The notes beneath the pieces are model-generated. The model was not told where the DNA came from. It did no database searches and saw only the letters and a list, made by a program, of their open reading frames with translations. A stretch of 64,000 nucleotides of DNA, from assembly GCF_018613835.1 (NCBI RefSeq), contig NZ_JAGGPM010000035.1:186001-250000 (forward strand). The letters run 5' to 3'. Numbering within the stretch: the first letter of the stretch is position 1; each line of letters opens with the position of its first letter. The position numbers and the translations under genes are program-made. This DNA comes from Arthrobacter sp. ISL-5 (GTDB taxonomy: Bacteria; Actinomycetota; Actinomycetes; Actinomycetales; Micrococcaceae). Positions 3,561-16,938 of this stretch are shown in pieces.

Positions 3561-6191
3561 CTATACCTCGTTCTCATCGCGGGGCCTCATGGGGATGGAA
3601 GCCCCGATCAGGACCTTTCCCTTTTCTTCTGCCGTGGCCGGACGCATCTGGCCGCGCTCGTCGGGGACGAAGGTGATGGAGTCGTCCTTCTGGTCGGGAG
3701 CGTTGACGAAGGACCGGAACCGGCGCAGGCGCTCGGGATCCTTCAGGGTGTCTGCCCACTCGTCGACGTACGTGTCAACATGCTTGGCCATGGCCGCTTC
3801 GAGTTCCGCGGCAATGCCCAGGGTGTCGTTGACCACCACGTCCTCGACGTGCTTGATGCCGCCGTCGAGCTCCTCCTGCCACCGTGCGGTACGCTGCAGC
3901 CGGTCGGCGGTGCGGATGTAGTACATGAAGTAGCGGTCGATGTACTTGATCAGCGTTTCGTCGTCGAGGTCCTTGGCCAGCAGTTGGGCGTGGGCCGGGG
4001 TGGCGCCGCCGTTGCCGCCGACGTACAGGTTCCAGCCGTCGGCAGTGGCGATCACGCCGACGTCCTTGCCGCGGGCCTCGGCGCATTCGCGGGCACAGCC
4101 GGAGACGCCCATTTTGAGCTTGTGCGGGCTGCGGAGGCCGCGGTAGCGCAGTTCCAGCTGGATGGCCATGGCCACCGAGTCCTGGACGCCGAAGCGGCAC
4201 CAGGTGGAACCGACGCAGGACTTCACTGTGCGCAGGCTCTTGCCGTAGGCCTGGCCGGACTCGAATCCGGCGTCCACGAGTTCCTTCCAGATTTCCGGGA
4301 GCTCCTCCAGCCGGGCACCGAACATGTCGATCCGCTGGCCGCCGGTGATCTTGGTGTACAGGCCGTACTTCTCGGCCACGGCGGCGATGACGCCGAGCTT
4401 CTTCGGCGTGATTTCACCGCCGGCGATGCGGGGAACTACCGAGTAGGTGCCGTCCTTCTGCATGTTGGCCAGCGCGCGGTCGTTGGTGTCCTGCAGGGTT
4501 CCGCGGCCGGCGTCCAGGACGTAGGCGCTGTTCTGGCTGGCGAGGATGTTGGCGATGGTCGGCTTGCAGATGTCGCAGCCTGCGCCGGTGCCGTACTTGG
4601 CCATGATCTCTTCGAAGGACGTCAGTTCCAGGACGCGGATCGCGTCGAACAGTTCCTGGCGGGACAGCTCGATGTGCTCGCAGAGCGCCTTCGAAACTTC
4701 GACGCCGGACTTGGTCAGTTCGGTTTCCAGCAGCTTCTTGAGCATCGGCACGCAGGAACCGCAGCTGGTTCCGGCGCGGGTGCAGCCCTTCAGCTCGCCC
4801 AGTTCCTGGACGGGGGCGTTGCCGTCGCAGGCGCCGCAGCCGTTGACGGTGTCGCGGATGGTTCCCGCGGACACGTTGTTGCAGGAGCACAGGATGGCGT
4901 CGTCCGGGAGTTCGGTGTCCGGGGCGTCGCCGCCGCCCGCCGCCGAGAGGTACGCGCCGGGCTCGGCACTGAGTTCGCGGCCCAGGAGCGGACGCAGGCT
5001 GGTGTAGGGGGTGGCGTCGCCCACGAAGATGCCGCCCAGGAGGGTCTTGGCATCGTCGGTGGTGACAATCTTCTGGTAGACGCCGCGGGCCGGGTCGGCG
5101 TAGACGATTTCAAGGGCGTGCTCGGTCTTGGCGAATGCGTCACCGAAGCTGGCGACATCCACACCGGACAGCTTGAGCTTGGTGGCGGTGTCGAACCCCG
5201 GGAAGGTGGCCTCTCCGCCGTGCAGGCGGTCAGCGACGATCTCGGCCATGGTGTTGGCAGGGGCGACCAGGCCCAGGCACATGCCGCCGAAGTTGGCCAC
5301 TTCACCGATGGCCCAGATTCCGTCGATCTCGGTAGCGCAGTAGTCGTTGATGACCACGCCGCCGCGCTGGCCCAGCGAGAAGATCTGCTCCTCGCCTTCG
5401 GCTGCGCGGAAGAGTTCGTCGCGCGGCCGGACGCCGATCGCGACGATCACAAGGTCAGCATCGATGATGCGGCCGTCAGCCATGAGGACACCGGTGACCT
5501 GGCCGTCGTCGTCGGACAATACTTCCGAAGGGAAGACGCCGCCGTGGACTTCGAAGCCCTTGCCCTTGATGAGCCGGCCCATTGCCTGGCCCGCGCCTTC
5601 ATCCAGCTGTGTAGCCATCAGCCACTGCGAACCGTCGATGACGATCGGGTTGGCGCCCAGCTGCTCCGTGCCGGCTGCAGACTCGAGCCCGAGGAGGCCG
5701 CCGCCGATGGTGACGGCGTTAACATTGCGGCCGAGCTTTTCGGTGAGTTCGGCAATGGCCTTGTTGATGGCCCAGACGTCCTCAAGCGTGCGGTAGACGT
5801 GGGTGTGCTCGGCGCCGGGGATCGGCAGGCGGGCGGCATTCGAACCCGTGGCAACCACGAGGTCGTCGTATTCAAAGACGTTGCCGGCCGCGGTCTCCAC
5901 GGACTTGGCTTCGTGGTTGATTTTGACGACGCGCTCGCCGGTCTTCAGGGACATGGCCTCGTGGTCCCACATGCTCGCCTCGCCGAGGGTGAGGTCGTAG
6001 TCCATTTCCGTCAGGGCCTTGCTGAGCGCCACGCGGTCGTAGGGGAGGTGGGCTTCCTCAGTGAGGACCGTGACATGCCAGCCTTCGAGGCCGCGGGCAT
6101 GCATTGCGTCCGCAAAACGGTGGGCCGCCGGGCCGCCGCCGGCGACGACGATGCGGCGCGGAGTCTCTGTGCTTGAAGTCTGTTCGGTCAC
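3561..6191 (-). CDS. nirB: Assimilatory NADH-nitrite reductase, large (siroheme) subunit
   Basis: An 876-residue NirB that reduces nitrite to ammonium in the cytoplasm with NAD(P)H. In order: FAD/NAD domain (RRIVVAGGGPAAHRFADAM, then VVATGS and GIWAIGEVANF), two BFD-type [2Fe-2S] regions (ILCSCNNVSAGTI...CGSC and GTGAGCDICKP), a ferredoxin-like half domain, and the siroheme/[4Fe-4S] site with paired cysteines in SCVGSTWCRFG and GVSGCARECAEARG. GTG at 6191 is chosen because it follows GAAAGG at a normal distance and gives a family-typical length; an upstream in-frame start at 6311 would add 40 unlike residues. It faces nirD across 291 bases and leads the cobA-hemD operon. A GlnR-like array lies 65-105 bases upstream. 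Confidence 0.95.
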   Translation of the reverse strand: MTEQTSSTETPRRIVVAGGGPAAHRFADAMHARGLEGWHVTVLTEEAHLPYDRVALSKALTEMDYDLTLGEASMWDHEAMSLKTGERVVKINHEAKSVETAAGNVFEYDDLVVATGSNAARLPIPGAEHTHVYRTLEDVWAINKAIAELTEKLGRNVNAVTIGGGLLGLESAAGTEQLGANPIVIDGSQWLMATQLDEGAGQAMGRLIKGKGFEVHGGVFPSEVLSDDDGQVTGVLMADGRIIDADLVIVAIGVRPRDELFRAAEGEEQIFSLGQRGGVVINDYCATEIDGIWAIGEVANFGGMCLGLVAPANTMAEIVADRLHGGEATFPGFDTATKLKLSGVDVASFGDAFAKTEHALEIVYADPARGVYQKIVTTDDAKTLLGGIFVGDATPYTSLRPLLGRELSAEPGAYLSAAGGGDAPDTELPDDAILCSCNNVSAGTIRDTVNGCGACDGNAPVQELGELKGCTRAGTSCGSCVPMLKKLLETELTKSGVEVSKALCEHIELSRQELFDAIRVLELTSFEEIMAKYGTGAGCDICKPTIANILASQNSAYVLDAGRGTLQDTNDRALANMQKDGTYSVVPRIAGGEITPKKLGVIAAVAEKYGLYTKITGGQRIDMFGARLEELPEIWKELVDAGFESGQAYGKSLRTVKSCVGSTWCRFGVQDSVAMAIQLELRYRGLRSPHKLKMGVSGCARECAEARGKDVGVIATADGWNLYVGGNGGATPAHAQLLAKDLDDETLIKYIDRYFMYYIRTADRLQRTARWQEELDGGIKHVEDVVVNDTLGIAAELEAAMAKHVDTYVDEWADTLKDPERLRRFRSFVNAPDQKDDSITFVPDERGQMRPATAEEKGKVLIGASIPMRPRDENEV

Positions 6192-6256
6192 TGTGGGCCT
6201 TTCGCTGGGCCGCAGACGGTGCTCTGCAGCTTGTCCATCCAGACTAGGCAAGGGGA

Positions 6257-6294
6257 ATTTCGCTTCAGTTTCCCTTTTGTTTCGTGAACTTAAC
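6257..6294 (-). promoter_or_regulatory. Candidate GlnR-type operator in the nirB-nirD intergenic region
   Basis: Minus-strand half-sites GTTAA (6294-6290), GAAAC (6283-6279), GAAAC (6272-6268) and GAAAT (6261-6257) are spaced exactly 11 bases apart. This fits the periodicity of GlnR boxes (gTnAC-n6-GaAAc), and nitrite reductase is a classic GlnR target in actinobacteria. An overlapping dyad, TTCGTGA (6281-6287) with TCACGAA (6302-6308), is also present. Confidence 0.55.
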
Positions 6295-6365
6295 TTCTGC
6301 ATCACGAACACATTTCCGGACAGGTGAGGTGTCTTTTACGTTCCGGACACATTGACTGCACGCCT

Positions 6366-6395
6366 TTGAAACACCTGCCCCCTAGCTTGGATATA
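6366..6395 (+). promoter_or_regulatory. Possible nirD promoter
   Basis: TTGAAA at 6366-6371 and GATATA at 6390-6395 are separated by 18 bases, leaving an untranslated leader of about 85 bases before nirD. A direct repeat TTCCGGACA at 6314-6322 and 6341-6349 lies just upstream and could bind an activator. Confidence 0.4.
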
Positions 6396-6482
6396 CGGCC
6401 GCATTGGCGGCTGAAGCAGGCGGAATACGCCTCGCGGGAACCGGCCTACCGCCGGGAAGCAGGCAAAGGGAGAGGAGCCGAC

Positions 6483-6848
6483 ATGACGGCAACACTGGAA
6501 CTTGAGGATCTGGCCACCGGGTACGCCACTGGCTGGCACCGGGTTTGCGCCGTGGAGGATCTGGAGATCGCCTGGGGCGAAGCGGCACTCATTGCCGGCC
6601 TTCAGGTGGCGCTTTTCCGCACCGCCCCCGGTGAGGTTTTCGCCGTGGCACAGGAGGACCCGGCCACGGGCTCCTTCGTAATGGCACGCGGCATACTCGG
6701 ATCACGCGGCACGCGCCCCACCATCGCGTCGCCGCTGCACAAGGAGGTCTACGACCTCGAGACCGGCGAGTGCTTCGGCAACCCCGAGCTGCGGCTGGCC
6801 ACGTTCAACACGCGCGTCGCAGACGGCGTCCTCGAGGTTGAGCTGTAG
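6483..6848 (+). CDS. nirD: Assimilatory nitrite reductase small subunit, Rieske-like fold
   Basis: A 121-residue NirD. The pattern WHRVCAVEDLEIAWGEAALI, then VALFRT, then ASPLHKEVYDLETGECFGNP is that of the small subunit that pairs with NirB. Like other NirD proteins it has a Rieske fold without the Cys-His iron-sulphur ligands, so its role is structural or supportive. The ATG at 6483 follows GGAGAGGAG; an open frame further upstream lacks NirD-like residues. It is divergent from nirB instead of being directly downstream as in many bacteria, so both promoters share one control region. Confidence 0.9.
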   Translation: MTATLELEDLATGYATGWHRVCAVEDLEIAWGEAALIAGLQVALFRTAPGEVFAVAQEDPATGSFVMARGILGSRGTRPTIASPLHKEVYDLETGECFGNPELRLATFNTRVADGVLEVEL

Positions 6849-6879: not shown

Positions 6880-8619
6880 TTACAGGCCCAAAGCCTCGCG
6901 GACGTCGCCCAGCACCTGGTCCAGGGCCGTCCGCGCGGCCAGCCGGGCCTCGGGTAGTTCGGCAGCCGACCCCACGCTTCGGATGACTTCGAGGTAGCAC
7001 TTGAGCTTCGGCTCGGTGCCGCTGGGCCGGATGATCACCCGGCTGAGATCGCGGGTCAGGTAGAGCAGCCCGTCCGTCGGCGGCAGCTGTTCGCTTCCCT
7101 CGGCCAGGTCAATGAACGTTTCGACGGCGGAGCCGCCGAATGATTCGGGCGGACTGACGCGCAGACGGTTCATCATGGCATCCAGCAGGCCCAGGTCCGC
7201 GACGCGGATGTTCAGCTGGTCGCTCGCGTGCAGCCCATGGACCAGATAAAGCTCGTCCAGGGTGTCGAAGATGGTTTTGCCGTCGGCCTTGGCCGTGGCG
7301 GCGAGTTCCGCGATCAGCACGGCAGCGGAGATGCCGTCCTTGTCCCGGACCAGGTCCGGGGCCACGCAGTAGCCCAGCGCTTCCTCGTAGCCGTACAGCA
7401 GGCCCGGCACCCGGGAGATCCACTTGAATCCCGTCAGGGTTTCCTCGTGCGCATAGCCGGCCGCGGCTGCGATGCGTGCGAGCAGCCGCGAGGAAACGAT
7501 CGAATTGGCGAACACGCCGTCGGGCCTTTCCTCGCCGGTAGCGGACAGCCGCGCCACCACATGCGCCCCCAGCAGCGCGCCCACTTCATCGCCCCGCAGC
7601 ATCCGCCACGCGCCCGTATCCGGGTCCTTCGCGGCCACTGCGGCGCGGTCGGCGTCGGGGTCGTTGGCCACGACGATGTCGGCATCGGCCTGCATGGCGG
7701 CCCCGAGCGCGAGGTCCAGGGCCCCGGGCTCCTCGGGGTTGGGGAAACTGACAGTGGGGAAGTCCGGGTCCGGTTCGGCCTGCTCGCTGACCACCGTGAC
7801 GTCAGTGAAGCCGGCAGCGTTGAGGACGGAGACGGCGGTTTCGCCGCCCACGCCGTGCATCGGCGTCAGCACGATCTTGAGGTCGCGGGCCGGAAAGAGT
7901 TCGCGGTCGGCGAGGGCCGCGGTGGCGGACTCGTAGTCCCGGGCGATGCCGGCGTCCAGCACCGTCCAGCCGTCGGCGGCCAGCGGGATGGAATCCAGGG
8001 AGCCCACTTTGGCGATCTCCGCGGCGATGAGGGCGTCATACGGGGCCACGATCTGCGCGCCGCGGCCGCTGTCCTCGACCGCATGGCGGCCCAGGTAGAC
8101 CTTGTAGCCGTTGTCCTGCGGCGGGTTATGGCTGGCCGTGACCATCACGCCGCCGTCGCATTCCAGCGCCCGCACGGCGTATGCCAGCAGCGGGGTGGGC
8201 AGCGCGCCCGGCATCAGGAAGGTGTCGAACCCGGCCGCGGTGAAGATCGCGGCCGTCTCCTCGGCGAAGATGTCGGAGTTGTAGCGGGCGTCATAACCGA
8301 CGACGGCGCGCGGCCGGGTGCCGGGGGAGGCCTGGGCCACGGCTCCGGCCAGGAAGCTTGCGAAGCCCGCCGCTGCGCGGCGGACCACTACGCGGTTCAT
8401 CCGGTTGGGCCCGGGGCCCAGGGCGGCCCGGAGGCCTGCGGTGCCGAACTCCAGCGTTCCGTTGAAACTGTCCGCGAGCTCCTGGCGCGCCGACGGCGTG
8501 CCGGCCTCGGTGAGCTTGACGAGCTCCGTCAGCGTGGTGGCGGTCACGGGATCCGGATCCTGCGCGGCCCAGGCACGGGCGTCGTTGAGCAGCTGGAAAT
8601 CGGCATCGGAGGACGTCAT
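6880..8619 (-). CDS. Phosphoglucomutase/phosphomannomutase family protein
   Basis: A 579-residue alpha-D-phosphohexomutase that interconverts hexose 1- and 6-phosphates (glucose and/or mannose) for glycogen, cell-wall and glycan precursors. Family signatures are all visible: the phosphoserine loop VMVTASHNPPQDNGYK, the metal loop VANDPDADRAAV, the sugar-binding GFKWI-type segment and the C-terminal phosphate loop RPSGTEPKLKCY. The length fits the larger PGM2-like group. The ATG at 8619 is preferred over a TTG at 8664 because the hexamer TAGTTT lies seven bases before it. It ends 31 bases past nirD, convergent to it. Confidence 0.92.
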   Translation of the reverse strand: MTSSDADFQLLNDARAWAAQDPDPVTATTLTELVKLTEAGTPSARQELADSFNGTLEFGTAGLRAALGPGPNRMNRVVVRRAAAGFASFLAGAVAQASPGTRPRAVVGYDARYNSDIFAEETAAIFTAAGFDTFLMPGALPTPLLAYAVRALECDGGVMVTASHNPPQDNGYKVYLGRHAVEDSGRGAQIVAPYDALIAAEIAKVGSLDSIPLAADGWTVLDAGIARDYESATAALADRELFPARDLKIVLTPMHGVGGETAVSVLNAAGFTDVTVVSEQAEPDPDFPTVSFPNPEEPGALDLALGAAMQADADIVVANDPDADRAAVAAKDPDTGAWRMLRGDEVGALLGAHVVARLSATGEERPDGVFANSIVSSRLLARIAAAAGYAHEETLTGFKWISRVPGLLYGYEEALGYCVAPDLVRDKDGISAAVLIAELAATAKADGKTIFDTLDELYLVHGLHASDQLNIRVADLGLLDAMMNRLRVSPPESFGGSAVETFIDLAEGSEQLPPTDGLLYLTRDLSRVIIRPSGTEPKLKCYLEVIRSVGSAAELPEARLAARTALDQVLGDVREALGL

Positions 8620-8626
8620 AGGAACC

Positions 8627-8632
8627 AAACTA
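8627..8632 (-). promoter_or_regulatory. -10 element of a likely leaderless promoter, phosphohexomutase gene
   Basis: TAGTTT on the minus strand, seven bases before the ATG, with no ribosome site between. This is one base longer than the six-base spacing seen at most other leaderless genes in the window. Confidence 0.5.
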
Positions 8633-8700
8633 TCGTCAAAGCGGCGGGGAGCGGTGCCGGACAAGCCATCGGTCCGGTCACAACTTCGCAGGCCCCCGAT

Positions 8701-8740
8701 CCTTGACGGTAGGAATTGCCGTTCCTTGACAGTGAAAATT
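8701..8740 (+). repeat. Imperfect direct repeat upstream of the Rrf2 regulator
   Basis: Two 17-base copies, CCTTGACGGTAGGAATT (8701-8717) and CCTTGACAGTGAAAATT (8724-8740), start 23 bases apart, about two helical turns. The second copy contains the -35 box of the regulator gene, so this is a reasonable place for autoregulation. Confidence 0.5.
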
Positions 8741-8755
8741 CAGGACACGTACGGT
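8726..8755 (+). promoter_or_regulatory. Promoter of the Rrf2 regulator, probably leaderless
   Basis: A perfect TTGACA (8726-8731), an 18-base spacer and TACGGT (8750-8755). The start codon ATG begins seven bases after the hexamer, where transcription should begin, and there is no ribosome site. Confidence 0.75.
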
Positions 8756-8761
8756 CGCGGA

Positions 8762-9253
8762 ATGAAGATGAACCAGGGCGTGGAGTGGGCGCTGCACTGC
8801 TGCGTGAACATGGCCTGGTTGCCCGGCGATGAGCCAATCAGCAGCGCGCGGCTGGCGGAGCTGTACAAGCTGCCGCCGGCCTACCTGAACAAGCAGCTCC
8901 AGGCGCTGGTGCGGGCAGGAGTCCTGGTCTCGGTTTCCGGGCCCAAGGGCGGATTCCAGCTGGCGCGCAGGCCGGACAGGATCACCGTGCTGGACGTCGT
9001 GGTGGCCATCGAAGGCAGGGAGATGGCCTTCCGCTGCGACGGCATCCTGAAGAACGGGCCGGGAGGGGAAATGGAAGAGGACTACGCCCGGAGCTGCCTG
9101 ATCTCCCAGTCCATGCGCCACGCCGAGCTGGCCTGGCGGACCGAACTGGCCCGGCAGACCGTGGCGGGCATCGCGCAGTCCATCGAGCGAAGGTTCCCTG
9201 AGGCGCGCCCCAACACCGTCGCCCACCTCCTGGGAACGGACAACGCGGGGTAA
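8762..9253 (+). CDS. Rrf2-family [2Fe-2S] redox regulator, RsrR-like
   Basis: A 163-residue Rrf2-type transcription factor: an N-terminal winged helix (ARLAELYKLPPAYLNKQLQA, wing SGPKGGFQLARRP) and a long dimerisation helix. The usual three clustered cysteines of IscR/NsrR are absent. The only conserved-looking ligands are Glu8 and His12 in GVEWALHCC, Cys92 and Cys112. This corresponds to the unusual Glu8/His12/Cys/Cys [2Fe-2S] ligand set described for Streptomyces RsrR, with the same 20-residue gap between the cysteines. This also supports the ATG at 8762. The gene appears leaderless and is divergent from the phosphohexomutase gene; the target genes cannot be named. Identity as an RsrR homologue is inferred from ligand positions. 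Confidence 0.82.
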   Translation: MKMNQGVEWALHCCVNMAWLPGDEPISSARLAELYKLPPAYLNKQLQALVRAGVLVSVSGPKGGFQLARRPDRITVLDVVVAIEGREMAFRCDGILKNGPGGEMEEDYARSCLISQSMRHAELAWRTELARQTVAGIAQSIERRFPEARPNTVAHLLGTDNAG

Positions 9254-9263
9254 TCTGCCGCGG

Positions 9264-10082
9264 TTAGAGCCTGGCGATAATCTCCGCGAGGAGCTTGGAG
9301 ATCCGCGGGCCGGCAGCCTGGCCGGATTCGATAACTTCCTGGTGGCTCAGCGGTACCGGGCTGATGCCGGCGGCGAGGTTGGTGACCAGCGAAATGCCGA
9401 ACACCTCCATGCCCGCATGCCGCGCGGCGATGGCCTCCAGCGCCGTGGACATGCCGACGAGGTCGGCGCCAATCCGCTTGGCGTACTGCACTTCGGCCGG
9501 CGTTTCGTAGTGGGGTCCGGTGAACTGGGCGTACACGCCCTCGTCCAGGGAGGGATCGACCTCACGGGCCAGGCCGCGGATCCGTGATGAGTAAAGATCT
9601 GTCAGATCCACGAAGGTGGCGCCCTCGAGCGGTGATGCCGCGGTGAGGTTGATGTGATCTTTGATGAGCACGGGCGTGCCCGGCGCCCAGTTTTCGTTGA
9701 GCCCGCCGCAGCCGTTGGTGACCACGAGGGTCTTGCAGCCGGCGGCGGCCGCCGTGCGCACCCCGTGGACAACCGCGCGGACGCCTTTGCCCTCGTAGTA
9801 ATGGGTGCGGGCGCCGAGCACCAGCGCACGCTTGCCTTCCCGCGTCAGGACCGAGCGGATGGTGCCCACATGGCCCTCCACCGCCGGTGCGGAAAAGCCC
9901 GGCACTTCCGAGGCCATGAGGGTGGCCGTGGTCTCACCGATGAGTTCCGAGGCTTCGCCCCAGCCGGAGCCCAGGACCAGGGCGATGTCGTGCGACTCCA
10001 CGCCGGTCTCGGTTGCGATGTAGTCGGCGGCGGTGCGGGCTGCCTCGAAGGGGTCAGTGTTCAGGAATTCTGTATTACTCAC
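9264..10082 (-). CDS. punA: Purine nucleoside phosphorylase
   Basis: A 272-residue trimeric-type PNP that splits inosine and guanosine (and deoxy forms) to base and (deoxy)ribose 1-phosphate for purine salvage. Supporting motifs: LVLGSGWGEASE near the N-terminus, GARTHYYEGKGV, VVTNGCGGLNE, the purine-site region YAQFTGPHYETPAEV and GADLVGMSTALEAI. The start is GTG at 10082 with TAGCTT six bases upstream, a leaderless arrangement. It ends 10 bases from the convergent Rrf2 gene. The pentose phosphate product could feed the neighbouring sugar-phosphate mutase. Confidence 0.93.
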   Translation of the reverse strand: MSNTEFLNTDPFEAARTAADYIATETGVESHDIALVLGSGWGEASELIGETTATLMASEVPGFSAPAVEGHVGTIRSVLTREGKRALVLGARTHYYEGKGVRAVVHGVRTAAAAGCKTLVVTNGCGGLNENWAPGTPVLIKDHINLTAASPLEGATFVDLTDLYSSRIRGLAREVDPSLDEGVYAQFTGPHYETPAEVQYAKRIGADLVGMSTALEAIAARHAGMEVFGISLVTNLAAGISPVPLSHQEVIESGQAAGPRISKLLAEIIARL

Positions 10083-11733: not shown

Positions 11734-13299
11734 TCAGGCGGCTGGAGCCGCCTGGAAGTGTTTTTCGATGAGTCCCTTGATGTCCTCGTGGCAGCCGCCG
11801 CAGCCGGTGCCGGCGCGGGTAGCTGAGGAGACCTCGGCTACGGTCGAGCAGCCGCCCGTCACAGCCTCCGTGATCTTGCCGCCGCTGACACCGGCACACC
11901 GGCACACGGTGCTTTCGGGGTCGTTGGAGGCGCCGGACGGGGCCAGCTGGTCGGGTCCGTCCAGGCGCAGGAGCAGGGAACGGTCCGCGGGCAGTTCTCC
12001 GCCGCGTTCGAAGAGCTGCACCAGCTCGCCGGCGGTGCGGGGCATGCCCACGCTGACCAGGCCCTCGAGCACGCCGCCGCGAGTGGTCATCTTCACGTAG
12101 CGGCCGTGCTCCGGATCGGCCCACTGGGCGATCTGGAGGCGGGGCCGGCCGTTGACGGCTCCGGCGGTCAGGACGTCCTCGTCCCAGGGCTCCGCCGCGT
12201 TGTCCCCGGCCACGGCCATGTTCAGGCCGCGGGCCTTGAGCACAATCACGCCGGGCTTCTCCTGGGGGAGCGCGGGCAGCGAATCCGCGTCCTCCTGGGA
12301 GCCCTCGTTCAGCAGCAGCAGGTACTCGGCGAGCCATTCGGCCTGCCGCCAGCCCGGGCCCACCAGGCCGGACGGTCCCCGCGCCGTGCGGCACTCGATG
12401 CAGTCCGGTTCCGGGCAACGGACTTCCGCGCAGTCGCCAATGGCGAAGATGTGCGGTTCGTGGTGCGCGCGCAGCCGGTGGTCCACGAGGATGCCCGTCG
12501 CCGTGGACAGCCCGCAGCCTTCGGCCAGTTCGGTCCGCGGCCGGACGCCGCACGAGAGGACCAGGAGGTCGCCGTCGATCGCAGAGCCGTCGTCAAGCAG
12601 CAGGGCCGAGAACCCGCCGTCGGGGGCGTTGTGTTCCACGCCCGTGGAGCGGGCGTTGCCGGCCATCCGGACGCCGCAGTTGCGCAGGCTGGCGGCGAGC
12701 ACCGCTCCGCCCCCGCGGTCGATGTTCCGGCCCAGCGGGTGGGGTCCGTTGTGCACCACGGTGACGGTGGCACCTTCCTCGGCGGCGGCCAGGGCCGTCT
12801 CCAGCCCCAGCACGCCGCCGCCGAGCACCACCACGCGCTTGCGGCCGGCCACGGCCTTGCGGAGGACCTCTGCGTCGCGAAGGTCGCGCAGCGCGGTGAC
12901 GCCTGCGGGCAGGACGGGTGCCGCGGGGTCCGGGTTGATCCCCGCGAGGTTGGGGATGACAGGACGGGAGCCGGTGGCGAAGACCAGCCGGTCGTAGTGG
13001 GCCGAAGTGCCGTCGGCGAGAAGGACCTGCTGCCGGGCCCGGTCCACGCGCTTGACCTTGACGCCCAGCCGGACGTCAACGCCTTCCGCAATGAGGGCGG
13101 CGGCATCAGCCAGGGCGAGGGCCTCGGCGGTGGTCCGGCCGACGCCCAGATCGGCGACCAGCACCCGGTTATAGGCGGCGTCGGCTTCCTGGCCGATGAC
13201 CGTCAGCCGCACCTGCCCGCCGCGAACCGCCGGGAGCAGTTCGTCGACCAGCCGCGCCGCCACCGGACCAAATCCGACAATTACAATCTGCTCGCTCAT
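11734..13299 (-). CDS. nasB: Nitrate reductase electron-transfer flavoprotein with C-terminal [2Fe-2S] domain
   Basis: A 521-residue NirB-like flavoprotein likely to feed electrons from NAD(P)H to the catalytic subunit NasA. It begins QIVIVGFGPVAARLV (FAD), continues with VFATGSRPV, the NAD site VVVLGGGVLGLETA and HIFAIGDCAEV. It ends in a BFD-like [2Fe-2S] domain with cysteines in VCRCAGVSGG and GTGCGGCHEDI. It has no siroheme domain, which separates it from NirB. ATG at 13299 overlaps the nasA stop by four bases (ATGA) behind GGAGGCCTC, so the two are translationally coupled. It is the last gene of narK-nasA-nasB. Confidence 0.88.
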   Translation of the reverse strand: MSEQIVIVGFGPVAARLVDELLPAVRGGQVRLTVIGQEADAAYNRVLVADLGVGRTTAEALALADAAALIAEGVDVRLGVKVKRVDRARQQVLLADGTSAHYDRLVFATGSRPVIPNLAGINPDPAAPVLPAGVTALRDLRDAEVLRKAVAGRKRVVVLGGGVLGLETALAAAEEGATVTVVHNGPHPLGRNIDRGGGAVLAASLRNCGVRMAGNARSTGVEHNAPDGGFSALLLDDGSAIDGDLLVLSCGVRPRTELAEGCGLSTATGILVDHRLRAHHEPHIFAIGDCAEVRCPEPDCIECRTARGPSGLVGPGWRQAEWLAEYLLLLNEGSQEDADSLPALPQEKPGVIVLKARGLNMAVAGDNAAEPWDEDVLTAGAVNGRPRLQIAQWADPEHGRYVKMTTRGGVLEGLVSVGMPRTAGELVQLFERGGELPADRSLLLRLDGPDQLAPSGASNDPESTVCRCAGVSGGKITEAVTGGCSTVAEVSSATRAGTGCGGCHEDIKGLIEKHFQAAPAA

Positions 13300-15482
13300 G
13301 AGGCCTCCGAGGTCTGAAGAACACTGTTGCTTAGTACGTTCGCGGCCAGCCGGACCCATACCTGGTTGAATTTGAATTCGGGCATCCCCGAGATGGGGTC
13401 CGTGGCGGCTTCCGTCAGACGGTTCGCGCTTTCCAGCTCCGGGAAGTGGAAGGGCAGGAACACGGTCTCCGGGCGGATGGCCGTGCTGAGCTCCGCCCGG
13501 CAGACCACCTCGCCGCGCTCATTCGCCACCGATACCTGTGCACCGTCCGTGATGCCCATGGCGGCCGCGGCTGCGGGGTGGATCTGCAGCTTGGCTTCGG
13601 GCTGGGACGCGAGGAGCTCGGACACGCGCCGCGTCTGGGCTCCGGACTGGTAGTGCTCCAGCAGGCGGCCGGTGATGAGGGTCATCGGTTTCGCGGCCGG
13701 GTCCGGGTTCGCCATGGGGGTACGACGACGGCGGGGCGTCACCGGGGTCATGACGGCCTTGCCGTCGGCGTGCGCAAACGCGTCCAGGAACATCCGCGGC
13801 GTGCCGGTGCTGCCTGCGGGGTACGGCCAGTAGGCGGCTTCGCCGCGGTCCAGCATGGCGTAGTCGATGCCGGAGTAGTCCGCTGCACCGCCGGCGGATG
13901 CCAGGCGAAGCTCCTCGAAAACCGTCTCGGGGTCATCGCTGTACGTGGACGGCGCTTCGAGTGCTTCGGCCAGCCTGGCCATGATCCACAGTTCGCTGCG
14001 GGCCCCGGCGGGCGGCTGGATAGCCTTGCGGCGGCGCAGGACGCGGCCTTCGAGGTTCGTCAGGGTGCCCTCCTCCTCGGCCCACTGCAGGACCGGCAGG
14101 ACGAGGTCGGCCTCGGCGGCAGTTTCGGACATGAAGAAGTCGCAGACCACGAGGAAATCCAGGCTGCGGAGCCCGGCGATGACGGAGTTCGCGTCGGGGG
14201 ACGCCACGGCGATATTGGAGGCGTGCACGAAGAGGCAGCGGACGCCGTCGGGCTGTCCGAGCGATTTGAGCATCTGGACGGCCGGCAGGCCGGGCCCGGG
14301 GATCAGCGACTCGGGCACATCCCAGACCTTGGCCATGTGGGCGCGCGCCGCGGGATCGGTGATCTTGCGGTAGCCCGGCAGCTGGTCGGCCTTCTGGCCG
14401 TGTTCGCGCCCGCCCTGGCCGTTGCCCTGGCCGGTGAGTGTGCCGTAGCCGCTGCGGGCGGAGCCGGGCAGGCCCAGCAGGAGGCTGAGGTTGATGGCGG
14501 CCGTGGCGGTGTCGGTCCCGTCGATGTGCTGTTCGACGCCGCGGCCGGTCAGGATGTAGCTGCCGCCCTTGCGTGCGCCGTCGGCCAGCCTGCGGGCTGT
14601 CTCGCGGATGAGCTCGGCGGGTACGCCGGTGAGCGACTGGACGCGTTCCGGCCAGAAGGCGTTGACGCTGCGGACCAGGGCGTCGTAGCCGGTGGTGCGC
14701 TCCTGGACGTATCCGGCGTCGACGAGTCCTTCGTGGATGACCACGTGCGACAGGCCGAGCAGGAGGGCGAGGTCGGTGCCCGGCAGGGGCTGGAGGTGGA
14801 GGCCGCCGCCGTCGGCAGTGAAGGCCGCCGTGGCCGAACGGCGGGGGTCAACCACGATGAGGCCGCCGGCCGCGCGGACACCCTGCAGGTGCTGGACGAA
14901 GGGCGGCATGGTCTCGGCGACGTTGGAGCCGAGCATCAGGATGGTGCTGGCACTGTCAAGTGCCTCAAGCGGGAACGGCAGGCCGCGGTCCAGGCCGAAG
15001 GCCCGCATGCCCGCGGCCGCAGCGGATGACATGCAGAACCGGCCGTTGTAGTCGATGCGGGAGGTACCCAGCGCGAGGCGGGCGAACTTTCCCAGCTGGT
15101 AGGCCTTCTCGTTGGTGAGGCCGCCACCGCCGAAAACGCCGACGCCGTCGGCTCCGTGCTTCGCGCGGGTGTCTTTGACCGCGGTGGTGATGCGGGCCAG
15201 CGCCTCGTCCCAGGTGATGGGGCGGTGGACGCCGTCGGGCCCCTTCAGCAGGGGTTCGGTGACGCGGCCGGGGTGCTGCAGGAGCGAGGCCGAGGTCCAC
15301 CCCTTGCGGCAGAGGCCGCCGCGGTTCGTGGGGAAGTCGCGGCCGCTGACCTCCAGGGCCGGCGCGGCCGGCACGGGGTCTGACCCCGGCTGGACAGCCG
15401 GGGTCAGAGCCGCTGGGGACTTGAGCGTCATGGCGCACTGCAAGGCGCAGTAAGGGCAGTGCGTGTCGGCGCTTTTGGTCAT
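13296..15482 (-). CDS. nasA: Assimilatory nitrate reductase, molybdopterin catalytic subunit
   Basis: A 728-residue bis-MGD molybdenum enzyme that reduces nitrate to nitrite in the cytoplasm. The N-terminus carries the [4Fe-4S] cysteines (HCPYCALQC ... GGLCRKGW). The Mo-ligating cysteine lies in [13 protein letters not shown], and cofactor-binding segments include [28 protein letters not shown] and [19 protein letters not shown] at 15482 begins one base past the narK stop and gives the iron-sulphur motif directly at the N-terminus; a start seven codons earlier would overlap narK. Central gene of a three-gene nitrate operon whose product, nitrite, is used by NirBD about 7 kb away. Confidence 0.94.
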
Positions 15483-15483
15483 G

Positions 15484-16938
15484 TTAGACGTGTCCCATCG
15501 CATTTCGGTTGGCGTTGCGGATGTAGAAGAACCAGCAGACTGCCAGCATCACAACATAGGCTCCGACGAAGCCGTAGAACGCCGGGGTGTAGGAGCCGCT
15601 GGCGGAGTTGGAGGCGTTCAGCACCTGCGGGATCACAAACCCGCCGTAGGCGCCGATCGCCGAGATCAGGCCGAGGGCCGAGGAGGCCAGGCGCTGGGTT
15701 GTCACCGAGCTGGCACCCGAGCGGGCGGCCCGGCTGGAGATTGCGAAGATCACCGGGATCATCCGGTAGGTGGCGCCGTTTCCGAAGCCGCTGGCCGTGA
15801 AGAGCATCAGGAAGAGGGCCAGGAAGAGCCAGAAGTTCTTCAGCGGCAGGGTCCAGATCATGGTCAGCGTGATCACAGCCATCGAGGCGAAGGCTGCCAC
15901 GGTCATCCGGGCGCCGCCGAGGCGGTCAGCCATCCGTCCGCCGTACGGGCGGGCCAGCGAGCCGACCAGCGGGCCGAGGAAGGCGAGCGAGAGGGCCACC
16001 GTGCCGACTCCGATGGAGGAGAAGGCGGGGAAGTAGTCCTTGATGAGCTTGGGGAAGACGCCGGCGAAGCCGATGAAGGAGCCGAACGTGCCGATGTACA
16101 GCAGGGCCATGATCCACAGGTGCGGTTCCTTGAGCGCTGCCAGCGATCCGGCCACGTCACCCTTGGCGCTGGTGAGGTTGTCCATGTACTTCCAGGCGCC
16201 GAAGGCGGCGAGGAGGATCAGCGGTACCCACATGAGGCCGGCCATGGGGAGGTTGACGGCGCCGGCGGCCAAAAGCGTGATGGCGATCGGAACGGCGAGC
16301 TGTGCGACGGCGGCACCGAGGTTTCCGCCGGCGGCGTTCAGTCCGAGCGCCCAGCCCTTTTCGCGGGCCGGGTAGAAGAAGGTGATGTTCGCCATCGAGC
16401 TGGCGAAGTTGCCGCCGCCGAAGCCTGCCAGGGCGGCCACGAACAGCATGACGCCGAACGGTGTTTCCGGGTTGGAGACGCACATGGCCAGTCCGACCGA
16501 CGGAATCAGGAGGAGCATCGCGGAAACGATGGTCCAGTTCCGGCCGCCGAAGCGCGGGACCATGAACGTGTAGGGGATCCGGAGGGTGGCGCCTACCAGG
16601 CTCGGCATGGAGATGAGCCAGAAAATCTCCGAGGTGCTGAAGGTAAAGCCGGCGGCGGGCAGCTGGACCACCACGATGGACCAAAGCTGCCAGACGACGA
16701 AACCGAGGAACTCGGCGAAGATGGACCAGTTGAGGTTCCGGCGCGCAATCGTGCGGCCCTGTGTTTCCCACTGGTGCTTGTTCTCGGCGTCCCAGTTGGC
16801 GATCCAGCGGCCAGGACGGACTTCAAGGGCAGGTGCGTCGGTAGTGGTCACGGAAGCGGAGCCGCTTCCGTGCCTCGGCTCGGCGGCAAGATCGAGGGAA
16901 TTGCCGGTGCCGGTTTCTGCGGGGCGGTCAGCAGTCAC
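15484..16938 (-). CDS. narK: Nitrate/nitrite transporter, MFS NarK family
   Basis: A 484-residue major facilitator protein with 12 predicted hydrophobic segments after a roughly 60-residue polar N-terminus. NarK-type features are the WxxENKHQWETQG-style lead-in, ARRNLNWSIFAEFLGFVVW, two glycine-rich nitrate-signature segments (FGGGNFASSMANITFFYP and ASGFGNGATYRMIPVIF) and LGLNAAGGNLGAAVAQ. It should import nitrate for NasA. GTG at 16938 is chosen because a strong AAGGAGGT lies seven bases before it. It is the first gene of narK-nasA-nasB, with a GlnR-like array 48-85 bases upstream. Confidence 0.92.
   Translation of the reverse strand: MTADRPAETGTGNSLDLAAEPRHGSGSASVTTTDAPALEVRPGRWIANWDAENKHQWETQGRTIARRNLNWSIFAEFLGFVVWQLWSIVVVQLPAAGFTFSTSEIFWLISMPSLVGATLRIPYTFMVPRFGGRNWTIVSAMLLLIPSVGLAMCVSNPETPFGVMLFVAALAGFGGGNFASSMANITFFYPAREKGWALGLNAAGGNLGAAVAQLAVPIAITLLAAGAVNLPMAGLMWVPLILLAAFGAWKYMDNLTSAKGDVAGSLAALKEPHLWIMALLYIGTFGSFIGFAGVFPKLIKDYFPAFSSIGVGTVALSLAFLGPLVGSLARPYGGRMADRLGGARMTVAAFASMAVITLTMIWTLPLKNFWLFLALFLMLFTASGFGNGATYRMIPVIFAISSRAARSGASSVTTQRLASSALGLISAIGAYGGFVIPQVLNASNSASGSYTPAFYGFVGAYVVMLAVCWFFYIRNANRNAMGHV

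Follow-up and report, generated by a model that had tools for sequence, protein, structure and literature searches.

The gene at positions 8762 to 9253 (+) of a 64,000-nucleotide stretch of the Arthrobacter sp. ISL-5 genome (hereafter the window, meaning that whole stretch) probably encodes an Rrf2 transcription factor of the RsrR type, a dimer that would repress its own gene from an 11-3-11 operator under redox control. Comparison of sequences provides two new elements: the window protein belongs, in our phylogeny, to a branch of Actinomycetota proteins that lies apart from RsrR of Streptomyces venezuelae, and the predicted operator of this branch combines the GGAYA core of the RsrR operator with other outer bases. 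RsrR itself, the ligands of its iron-sulfur cluster and its standing as a cluster within the Rrf2 family have already been described (PMC5015018, PMC9218516); a search of the open-licence literature brought up nothing on this branch, on its operator or on the genes beside it. The assignments of family, ligand positions, predicted fold, predicted operator and neighbouring genes set out below are supported by sequence.

An RsrR-type regulator and its relatives

The frame of the regulator gene is intact from ATG 8762 to TAA 9253 and specifies a product of 163 amino acids. The host genome comprises 5.35 Mb in 70 contigs, with the window at C29:186001-250000, and the nearest named relatives with identical gene order are Arthrobacter and Pseudarthrobacter. 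The window protein scores above the cut-offs of the Rrf2 profiles PF02082 (103.1 bits; cut-off 30) and TIGR00738 (88.3 bits; cut-off 73.3), and far under that of the NCBIfam IscR profile (40.3 bits; cut-off 207.55). RsrR (6hsd) was its top sequence match in the PDB, with an E-value of 3.9e-35 over residues 1-156 of the window protein, whereas the second-best family reached only 3.6e-9; the window protein and RsrR are identical at 69 of 154 aligned residues. An AlphaFold monomer model, for which the input alignment consisted of 23 window and locus sequences, had a mean pLDDT of 92.2. The 11 top Foldseek matches of this model were all RsrR chains (best E-value 4.2e-15), with CymR next at 4.1e-8, and VIA-align against RsrR gave a Z score of 20.4 and an rmsd of 2.0 with 155 aligned positions, as compared with Z scores of 15.9 for CymR, 15.2 for IscR (4hf1) and 13.6 for NsrR of Streptomyces coelicolor (7b0c). 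Judged by the model, the closest fold is that of RsrR (Sven6563; PDB 6hsd, 6hse, 6hsm, 6y42, 6y45), which is alike over its whole length, rather than those of IscR, NsrR or CymR, which share the Rrf2 fold in general.

The predicted cluster ligands are encoded on the + strand at 8783-8785 (Glu8) and 8795-8797 (His12), which by analogy with RsrR would act from the partner subunit, and at 9035-9037 (Cys92) and 9095-9097 (Cys112), which align with RsrR Cys90 and Cys110. The intervening Trp9 (8786-8788, +) is, from its conservation and the RsrR literature, the counterpart of the tryptophan described as the switch residue of RsrR (PMC9218516, PMC11138216). The earlier note, made from the sequence alone, had called an RsrR-like Rrf2 regulator with these four residues at the positions of the RsrR ligands, a 20-residue gap between the cysteines and no three-Cys cluster. 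Its call of the family and of the ligand positions is borne out, while the one-electron redox sensor that it predicted stays a prediction: sequence, fold and tree all group the protein with RsrR, away from IscR, NsrR and CymR; codons and alignment agree on the ligand positions; the gap equals that between C90 and C110 of RsrR; and inspection of the whole window protein found no three-Cys motif of the IscR/NsrR kind, its cysteines being residues 13, 14, 92 and 112 and no others. Besides the four ligands with their spacing, the window protein has W9 and C14 in common with RsrR, while the extra Cys106 of RsrR is absent from it. In NsrR, Asp8 and three cysteines hold a [4Fe-4S] cluster (PMC5411485, PMC9218516), whereas the window protein has Glu8, His12 and two cysteines, and there is no flavohaemoglobin gene among its identified neighbours; IscR differs in its three-Cys motif, and no isc or suf genes were found among the neighbours identified. 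A profile search of the host genome retrieved one other Rrf2 protein above the Pfam cut-off (L002, on contig C11), an NsrR-like paralogue having Asp8, three cysteines and an adjoining gene named by eye as flavohaemoglobin-like; NsrR is therefore a separate gene in this genome.

The earlier note had named a lack of conservation of Glu8 or His12 among close homologues as one outcome that would speak against its reading; the alignments did not show it. Of 103 homologous loci, 101 carry E8, W9, H12, C14, C92 and C112; the relatives kept were the best 80 of 239, and the loci are not independent (102 usable sequences, own-genome copy included, collapse to 95 distinct ones). In the two exceptions, L023 and L056, the 5' part of the frame is broken and these positions cannot be aligned. 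Glycines 60, 63 and 64 of the wing do not vary among the 101 loci that could be aligned. All four ligands also occur in 23 of 23 rows of a more diverse alignment that included six loci at 33-55% identity, and in each of seven distant loci from the phylum (L111-L117; 33-54% identity), six of which retain W9, with His replacing it in L117. This constancy is not a general property of the family. Among 30 other actinobacterial Rrf2 proteins, which were among the best-scoring matches and not a random draw, the pair of Glu8 and His12 occurs in none: position 12 is Arg or Lys in all 30, and position 8 is Glu in 11, Asp in five, Arg in 13 and Thr in one. Since the pair is absent from every control, the E/H/C/C ligand set marks the RsrR kind and not Rrf2 at large.

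Two side observations concern these alignments. Cys14 (codon 8801-8803), which is no ligand in RsrR, is as conserved as the ligands. The truncated regulator copies L023 (genome G030) and L056 (Arthrobacter sp. Hiyo4) can be aligned only from residue 23-24 onward, and they probably represent one genome in two collections.

In a quickly built tree of 76 rows, for which the program gave long-branch warnings, one branch (SH-aLRT 97) unites 44 of the 45 rows having E8 and H12, the window protein and RsrR included; the distant L117 falls outside, giving two changes of the E8/H12 label on the tree. Within this branch, RsrR of S. venezuelae pairs with an Arthrobacter homologue (G055/L029; support 99) and the window protein lies elsewhere, in a separate set of 38 rows (support 97), so that both RsrR types occur in Arthrobacter. 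By record title, the hosts of the relatives kept include Arthrobacter, Pseudarthrobacter, Nonomuraea, Kribbella, Actinomadura, Micromonospora, Streptomyces, Agromyces, Phytoactinopolyspora and Streptosporangium. That the family occurs outside Streptomyces, as the earlier note suggested, is no discovery in itself: among the genomes covered here the type is not confined to Streptomyces, and a similarity network of the Rrf2 family has already been described in which RsrRs form one cluster with E8, H12, C90 and C110 conserved (PMC9218516).

Predicted operators and neighbouring genes

A palindrome stands upstream of the start codon in nearly all homologues. In the 47 loci from outside the Micrococcaceae (43 distinct sites) it reads roughly ATTCTGGAYAT-NTA-RTATCCAGAAT, an 11-3-11 inverted repeat that ends 0-2 bases before the start codon in every case; in the Micrococcaceae it is about TTCCGGACA-NGTAN-YGTCTGGAA and, in 51 of 53 loci (23 distinct sites), stops 0-1 bases short of that codon, all sites having been picked with a pattern that favours the consensus. 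The Micrococcaceae operators are lopsided, with a strongly kept left half-site and a right half of low information. The two exceptions to the placement are the window and L036, for which the placement script preferred other positions. The predicted autoregulatory operator of the window, TTCAGGACA-CGTAC-GGTCGCGGA (8739-8761, +; TTCAGGACACGTACGGTCGCGGA in full), which abuts ATG 8762, is therefore placed by comparison with relatives. An 11-3-11 inverted repeat at the regulator's own promoter is found for the branch as a whole; the window's copy is weak, departing from the symmetric pattern at three of its 16 fixed bases. An operator at its own promoter is common to RsrR and the branch. The RsrR operator oligonucleotides described in PMC5015018 contain ACTCGGATAGTCTGTGTCCGAGT, with the same 11-3-11 spacing and the same GGAYA core as the branch palindrome; the outer bases differ, being TTCTGGA or TTCCGGA in the branch and CTCGGA in RsrR.

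By eye, a -35-like TTGACA (8726-8731, +), kept in many Micrococcaceae relatives, can be paired with a poor -10-like TACGGT (8750-8755, +) that falls within the operator, some 7 bases ahead of the ATG. Its counterparts in relatives, likewise inside the palindrome, include TAATGT, TAACGT and TAGCGT, and are TARTRT or TAATGT-like in form. A consensus scan of window positions 8600-9320 for sigma-70-type promoters and terminators found none. With the -10-like element inside the palindrome, a bound dimer would cover the promoter, and the mRNA of the regulator gene, as read from these positions, is likely to be leaderless.

Outside the Micrococcaceae, further copies of the operator occur close to the regulator. 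The 47 loci were searched with a symmetric matrix derived from their own sites, ignoring the central five positions and excluding the auto-sites; this gave 20 secondary operators in 578,843 bases, versus none in the reversed sequences. All 20 are near the regulator: 15 follow it immediately, one (L101) comes a gene later, and four stand between the regulator and a divergent cupin gene in Micromonospora loci (L100, L106, L107, L110). The gene behind the site is a cupin gene in seven cases, CMD/AhpD-like in four, of the MFS kind in four and an oxidase gene of the FAD/berberine type in two. In L081 it encodes an ankyrin/DUF6461 protein, in L108 a mis-called frame is followed by a cupin gene, and in L096 the site precedes an NAD(P)-binding gene that follows the regulator and scores just below the NmrA cut-off (26.4 bits; cut-off 27), an arrangement that recalls the nmrA-rsrR pair of S. 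venezuelae. With or without such a site, the next gene is of the cupin, CMD/AhpD, MFS or FAD-oxidase kind in 35 of the 47 loci (34 by clustering, and L068 by Pfam); four more have a divergent cupin gene, and the remaining eight have other, uncalled or mis-called neighbours. These counts derive from genes that were called by a crude GC3 script and named by clustering, some of them mis-called (a called frame overlaps the regulator in L066, L071 and L108), with Pfam run on one or two members per neighbour kind plus L068, L081 and L096. The arrangement suggests that the regulators may control adjoining efflux and detoxification genes in many relatives. Repression of the neighbours is a prediction without direct precedent, and so is the kind of inducing compound.

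In the Micrococcaceae the setting is different and uniform: the regulator follows a divergent pgm gene in 33 of 33 named loci, and deoD is next in 32 of these. In the window these neighbours are a phosphosugar mutase gene, pgm (6880-8619, -; named by eye, with the start at ATG 8619 assumed), and a deoD-like purine-nucleoside phosphorylase gene that is convergent and downstream (9264-10082, -; also named by eye); the divergent neighbour of RsrR is instead nmrA, its main target. Unlike in the rest of the branch, an adjacent effector gene was not found beside the regulator in Arthrobacter. Matches occur in 23 of 61 genomes of the genus, 22 of which have the window type (one of them truncated), while the other, G055, has the S. 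venezuelae type alone. In the phylum as a whole, a match at E <= 1e-15 was obtained in 9 of 296 genomes, own genome included. The 38 genus genomes without the window type, which include G055 with its S. venezuelae type elsewhere, show a spacing between pgm and deoD of about 60-110 bases in 24 and of 1.8-3.9 kb in eight, and six have no deoD in the stretch fetched. In seven genomes that lack the regulator (L210, L211, L216, L217, L219, L223 and L224), the slot between pgm and deoD spans about 3.9 kb.

A proposed redox switch and its alternatives

The mechanism that we propose takes its cluster type, the sharing of ligands between subunits, the redox state that binds DNA and the motion of Trp9 from RsrR, and these are what we infer by analogy. 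At each site, Cys92 and Cys112 of one subunit would join Glu8 and His12 of its partner in holding a [2Fe-2S] cluster. The oxidised protein would bind the 11-3-11 palindrome over the core promoter, abutting the start codon, where the bound regulator would block its own leaderless transcript; one-electron reduction would turn Trp9, upon which the DNA would be released. In other Actinomycetota of the branch the same operator would also act before the neighbour gene, mostly one for a cupin, CMD/AhpD, MFS efflux or FAD oxidase protein, in a SoxR-like logic whereby local efflux or detoxification is turned on when the redox state of the cluster changes. In Arthrobacter, with the neighbour apparently gone, autoregulation alone would be predictable, and the protein may regulate itself together with further targets, or itself only. 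SoxR, a MerR-family protein with a fold unrelated to Rrf2 and all-Cys ligation of its cluster, is alike in its working only, through cluster-redox regulation, and is not a member of this group. The comparison with SoxR for reversible [2Fe-2S] oxidation was drawn by the authors of RsrR (PMC5015018).

The branch departs from RsrR at a residue that may belong to the proposed switching step. Tyr35 (8864-8866, +) aligns with RsrR His33, and in the 101 aligned homologues this position is Tyr in 95, His in four (the S. venezuelae-type copies L029 and L030, and also L008 and L032) and Phe in two; in the seven distant loci it is Phe in five, Tyr in one and Gln in one. The residue protonated in RsrR is reportedly His33. 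A crystal structure of the RsrR variant H33A is available (PDB 6y45). In PMC12594620 the reduction of RsrR is described as one in which 'a histidine' is protonated and a tryptophan turns, and PMC11138216 gives the protonated residue as the histidine ligand. As His33 of RsrR is Tyr35 in the window protein, the switching step may differ. A second replacement, of RsrR Ala41 by Asn43 (Asn in 99 of 101 homologues), affects a position that the model would put in the recognition helix. We tentatively entertain a wider possibility, to which we give somewhat less than even weight: that the branch is a second, undescribed RsrR-type system, one that works with Tyr instead of His33, uses an operator of its own and controls an adjacent efflux or oxidoreductase gene in many Actinomycetota. 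This would make it the actinobacterial equivalent of SoxR in responding to aromatic or redox-active compounds, the Micrococcaceae member being an autoregulated stand-alone sensor.

The same change from His to Tyr, in 95 of 101 homologues, would fit a protein that binds a cluster at the E/H/C/C site but senses something other than redox balance, such as NO, iron or cluster supply, with the site kept for stability and not for reversible one-electron cycling. Other Rrf2 proteins are described as sensing NO, iron or cluster status (PMC5015018), and genes for nitrite and nitrate reductase are found within some 7 kb of the regulator; the nitrite link is unspecific, however, because nirB and nirD adjoin pgm in 38 of 38 genus genomes without the window type. 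We consider such non-redox sensing unlikely, given that Trp9 is retained together with all four ligands in 101 of 103 loci, that the branch neighbours are mostly efflux and oxidoreductase-type genes and that the host genome already has the NsrR-like protein beside its flavohaemoglobin-like gene (named by eye).

It is less probable again that the regulator in Arthrobacter is a decaying, nearly functionless remnant, in which the protein is kept, the effector has been lost and the operator is being lost. Such decay would account for the patchy presence in the genus (23 of 61 genomes, G055 with the S. venezuelae type only), the want of an adjacent effector, the lopsided Micrococcaceae operators with a weak one in the window, and the two truncated copies L023 and L056; yet the ligands and wing glycines are invariant in the 101 alignable loci, the slot after pgm is the same in all 33 named Micrococcaceae loci with deoD next in 32, and the left operator half-site is strongly kept. 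We give hardly any credence to a clusterless thiol sensor using disulfides of Cys92/Cys112 or Cys13/Cys14, in the manner of HypR or SaiR, which are described as two-Cys Rrf2 redox sensors (PMC9218516). Cys14 is indeed as conserved as the ligands, but Glu8 and His12, then coincidental, would persist to 33% identity without reason while the pair is found in none of 30 other Rrf2 proteins, and the match to the HypR profile is weak (14.4 bits; cut-off 180).

The preferred reading, a redox-switched repressor of the RsrR type, bears on questions raised by RsrR itself. In S. venezuelae only one ChIP target is reported as clearly changed upon loss of RsrR (PMC5015018), and the in vivo signal of RsrR is described as little known (PMC12594620). 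The branch offers many compact test cases, each with one regulator, one operator and one adjacent gene of the efflux or oxidoreductase type, so that signal and regulon would be testable with simple reporters; it yields a testable regulon prediction, and its His-to-Tyr change asks whether RsrR-type switching depends on the proposed proton step.

Searches for second targets and further observations

With up to two mismatches allowed, the symmetric pattern retrieved the auto-site in 18 of 21 genus carriers, and in these 21 it disclosed no convincing recurring second target. Nor did an Arthrobacter-type pattern applied to six carriers: in the own genome it matches exactly at the auto-site alone, and built-in controls give one-mismatch matches about as often in some genomes. 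Other single operator-like matches were inside genes or did not recur where examined; further single matches are at G059:C1:852732, G010:C1:909017 and G018:C1:1185172. A palindrome-like sequence, TTCCGGACA-N5-TGTACANAA, before a gene for an XRE-type regulator was present in four of the 21 carriers and in none of the 38 non-carriers. We rejected this site as a second target: the XRE gene occurs in 60 of 60 genomes and the site is at its ribosome-binding region, and among the 30 of 60 promoters compared the site decays in two carriers (G020, G059) and half of it is present in three non-carriers (G037, G021, G040). This rejection is a judgement, as the 4-to-0 count alone favours a link.

Several observations were made in passing. 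A small gene for a secreted-looking peptide with (I)GNWPDPM repeats (L157:5038-5223, +; also in G000:C66 around 18420) is divergent from a gene for an XRE/TPR-type regulator (3645-4907, - in L157), with a kept near-palindrome, CATTGTAAAAT, between the two. The XRE/TPR regulator was present in 60 of 60 genus genomes searched and the peptide was called in three of four loci inspected; together they resemble a peptide-signalling pair. In G055, the locus L168 (G055:C2:91000-103000) contains two oppositely oriented rsrR copies of the S. venezuelae type (L029, L030) with ACTCGGATA-type operators, and a divergent frame upstream of rsrR begins, by eye, like an nmrA gene.

In the window, genes for nitrite reductase and a molybdopterin oxidoreductase (nitrate reductase-like) flank the regulator (3561-6311, -; 6324-6848, +; 13296-15503, -), the NirB-like and NirD-like (Rieske_2) genes being divergent and not one operon. 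A link of the regulator to nitrite assimilation was rejected, since nirB, nirD and pgm adjoin in 38 of 38 genomes without the window type too. A gene for uroporphyrinogen-III synthase (HEM4; 1305-2528, -) has a C-terminal OmpR-type Trans_reg_C domain (31.2 bits; cut-off 26.2) and is near a tetrapyrrole methylase gene and the nitrite reductase gene.
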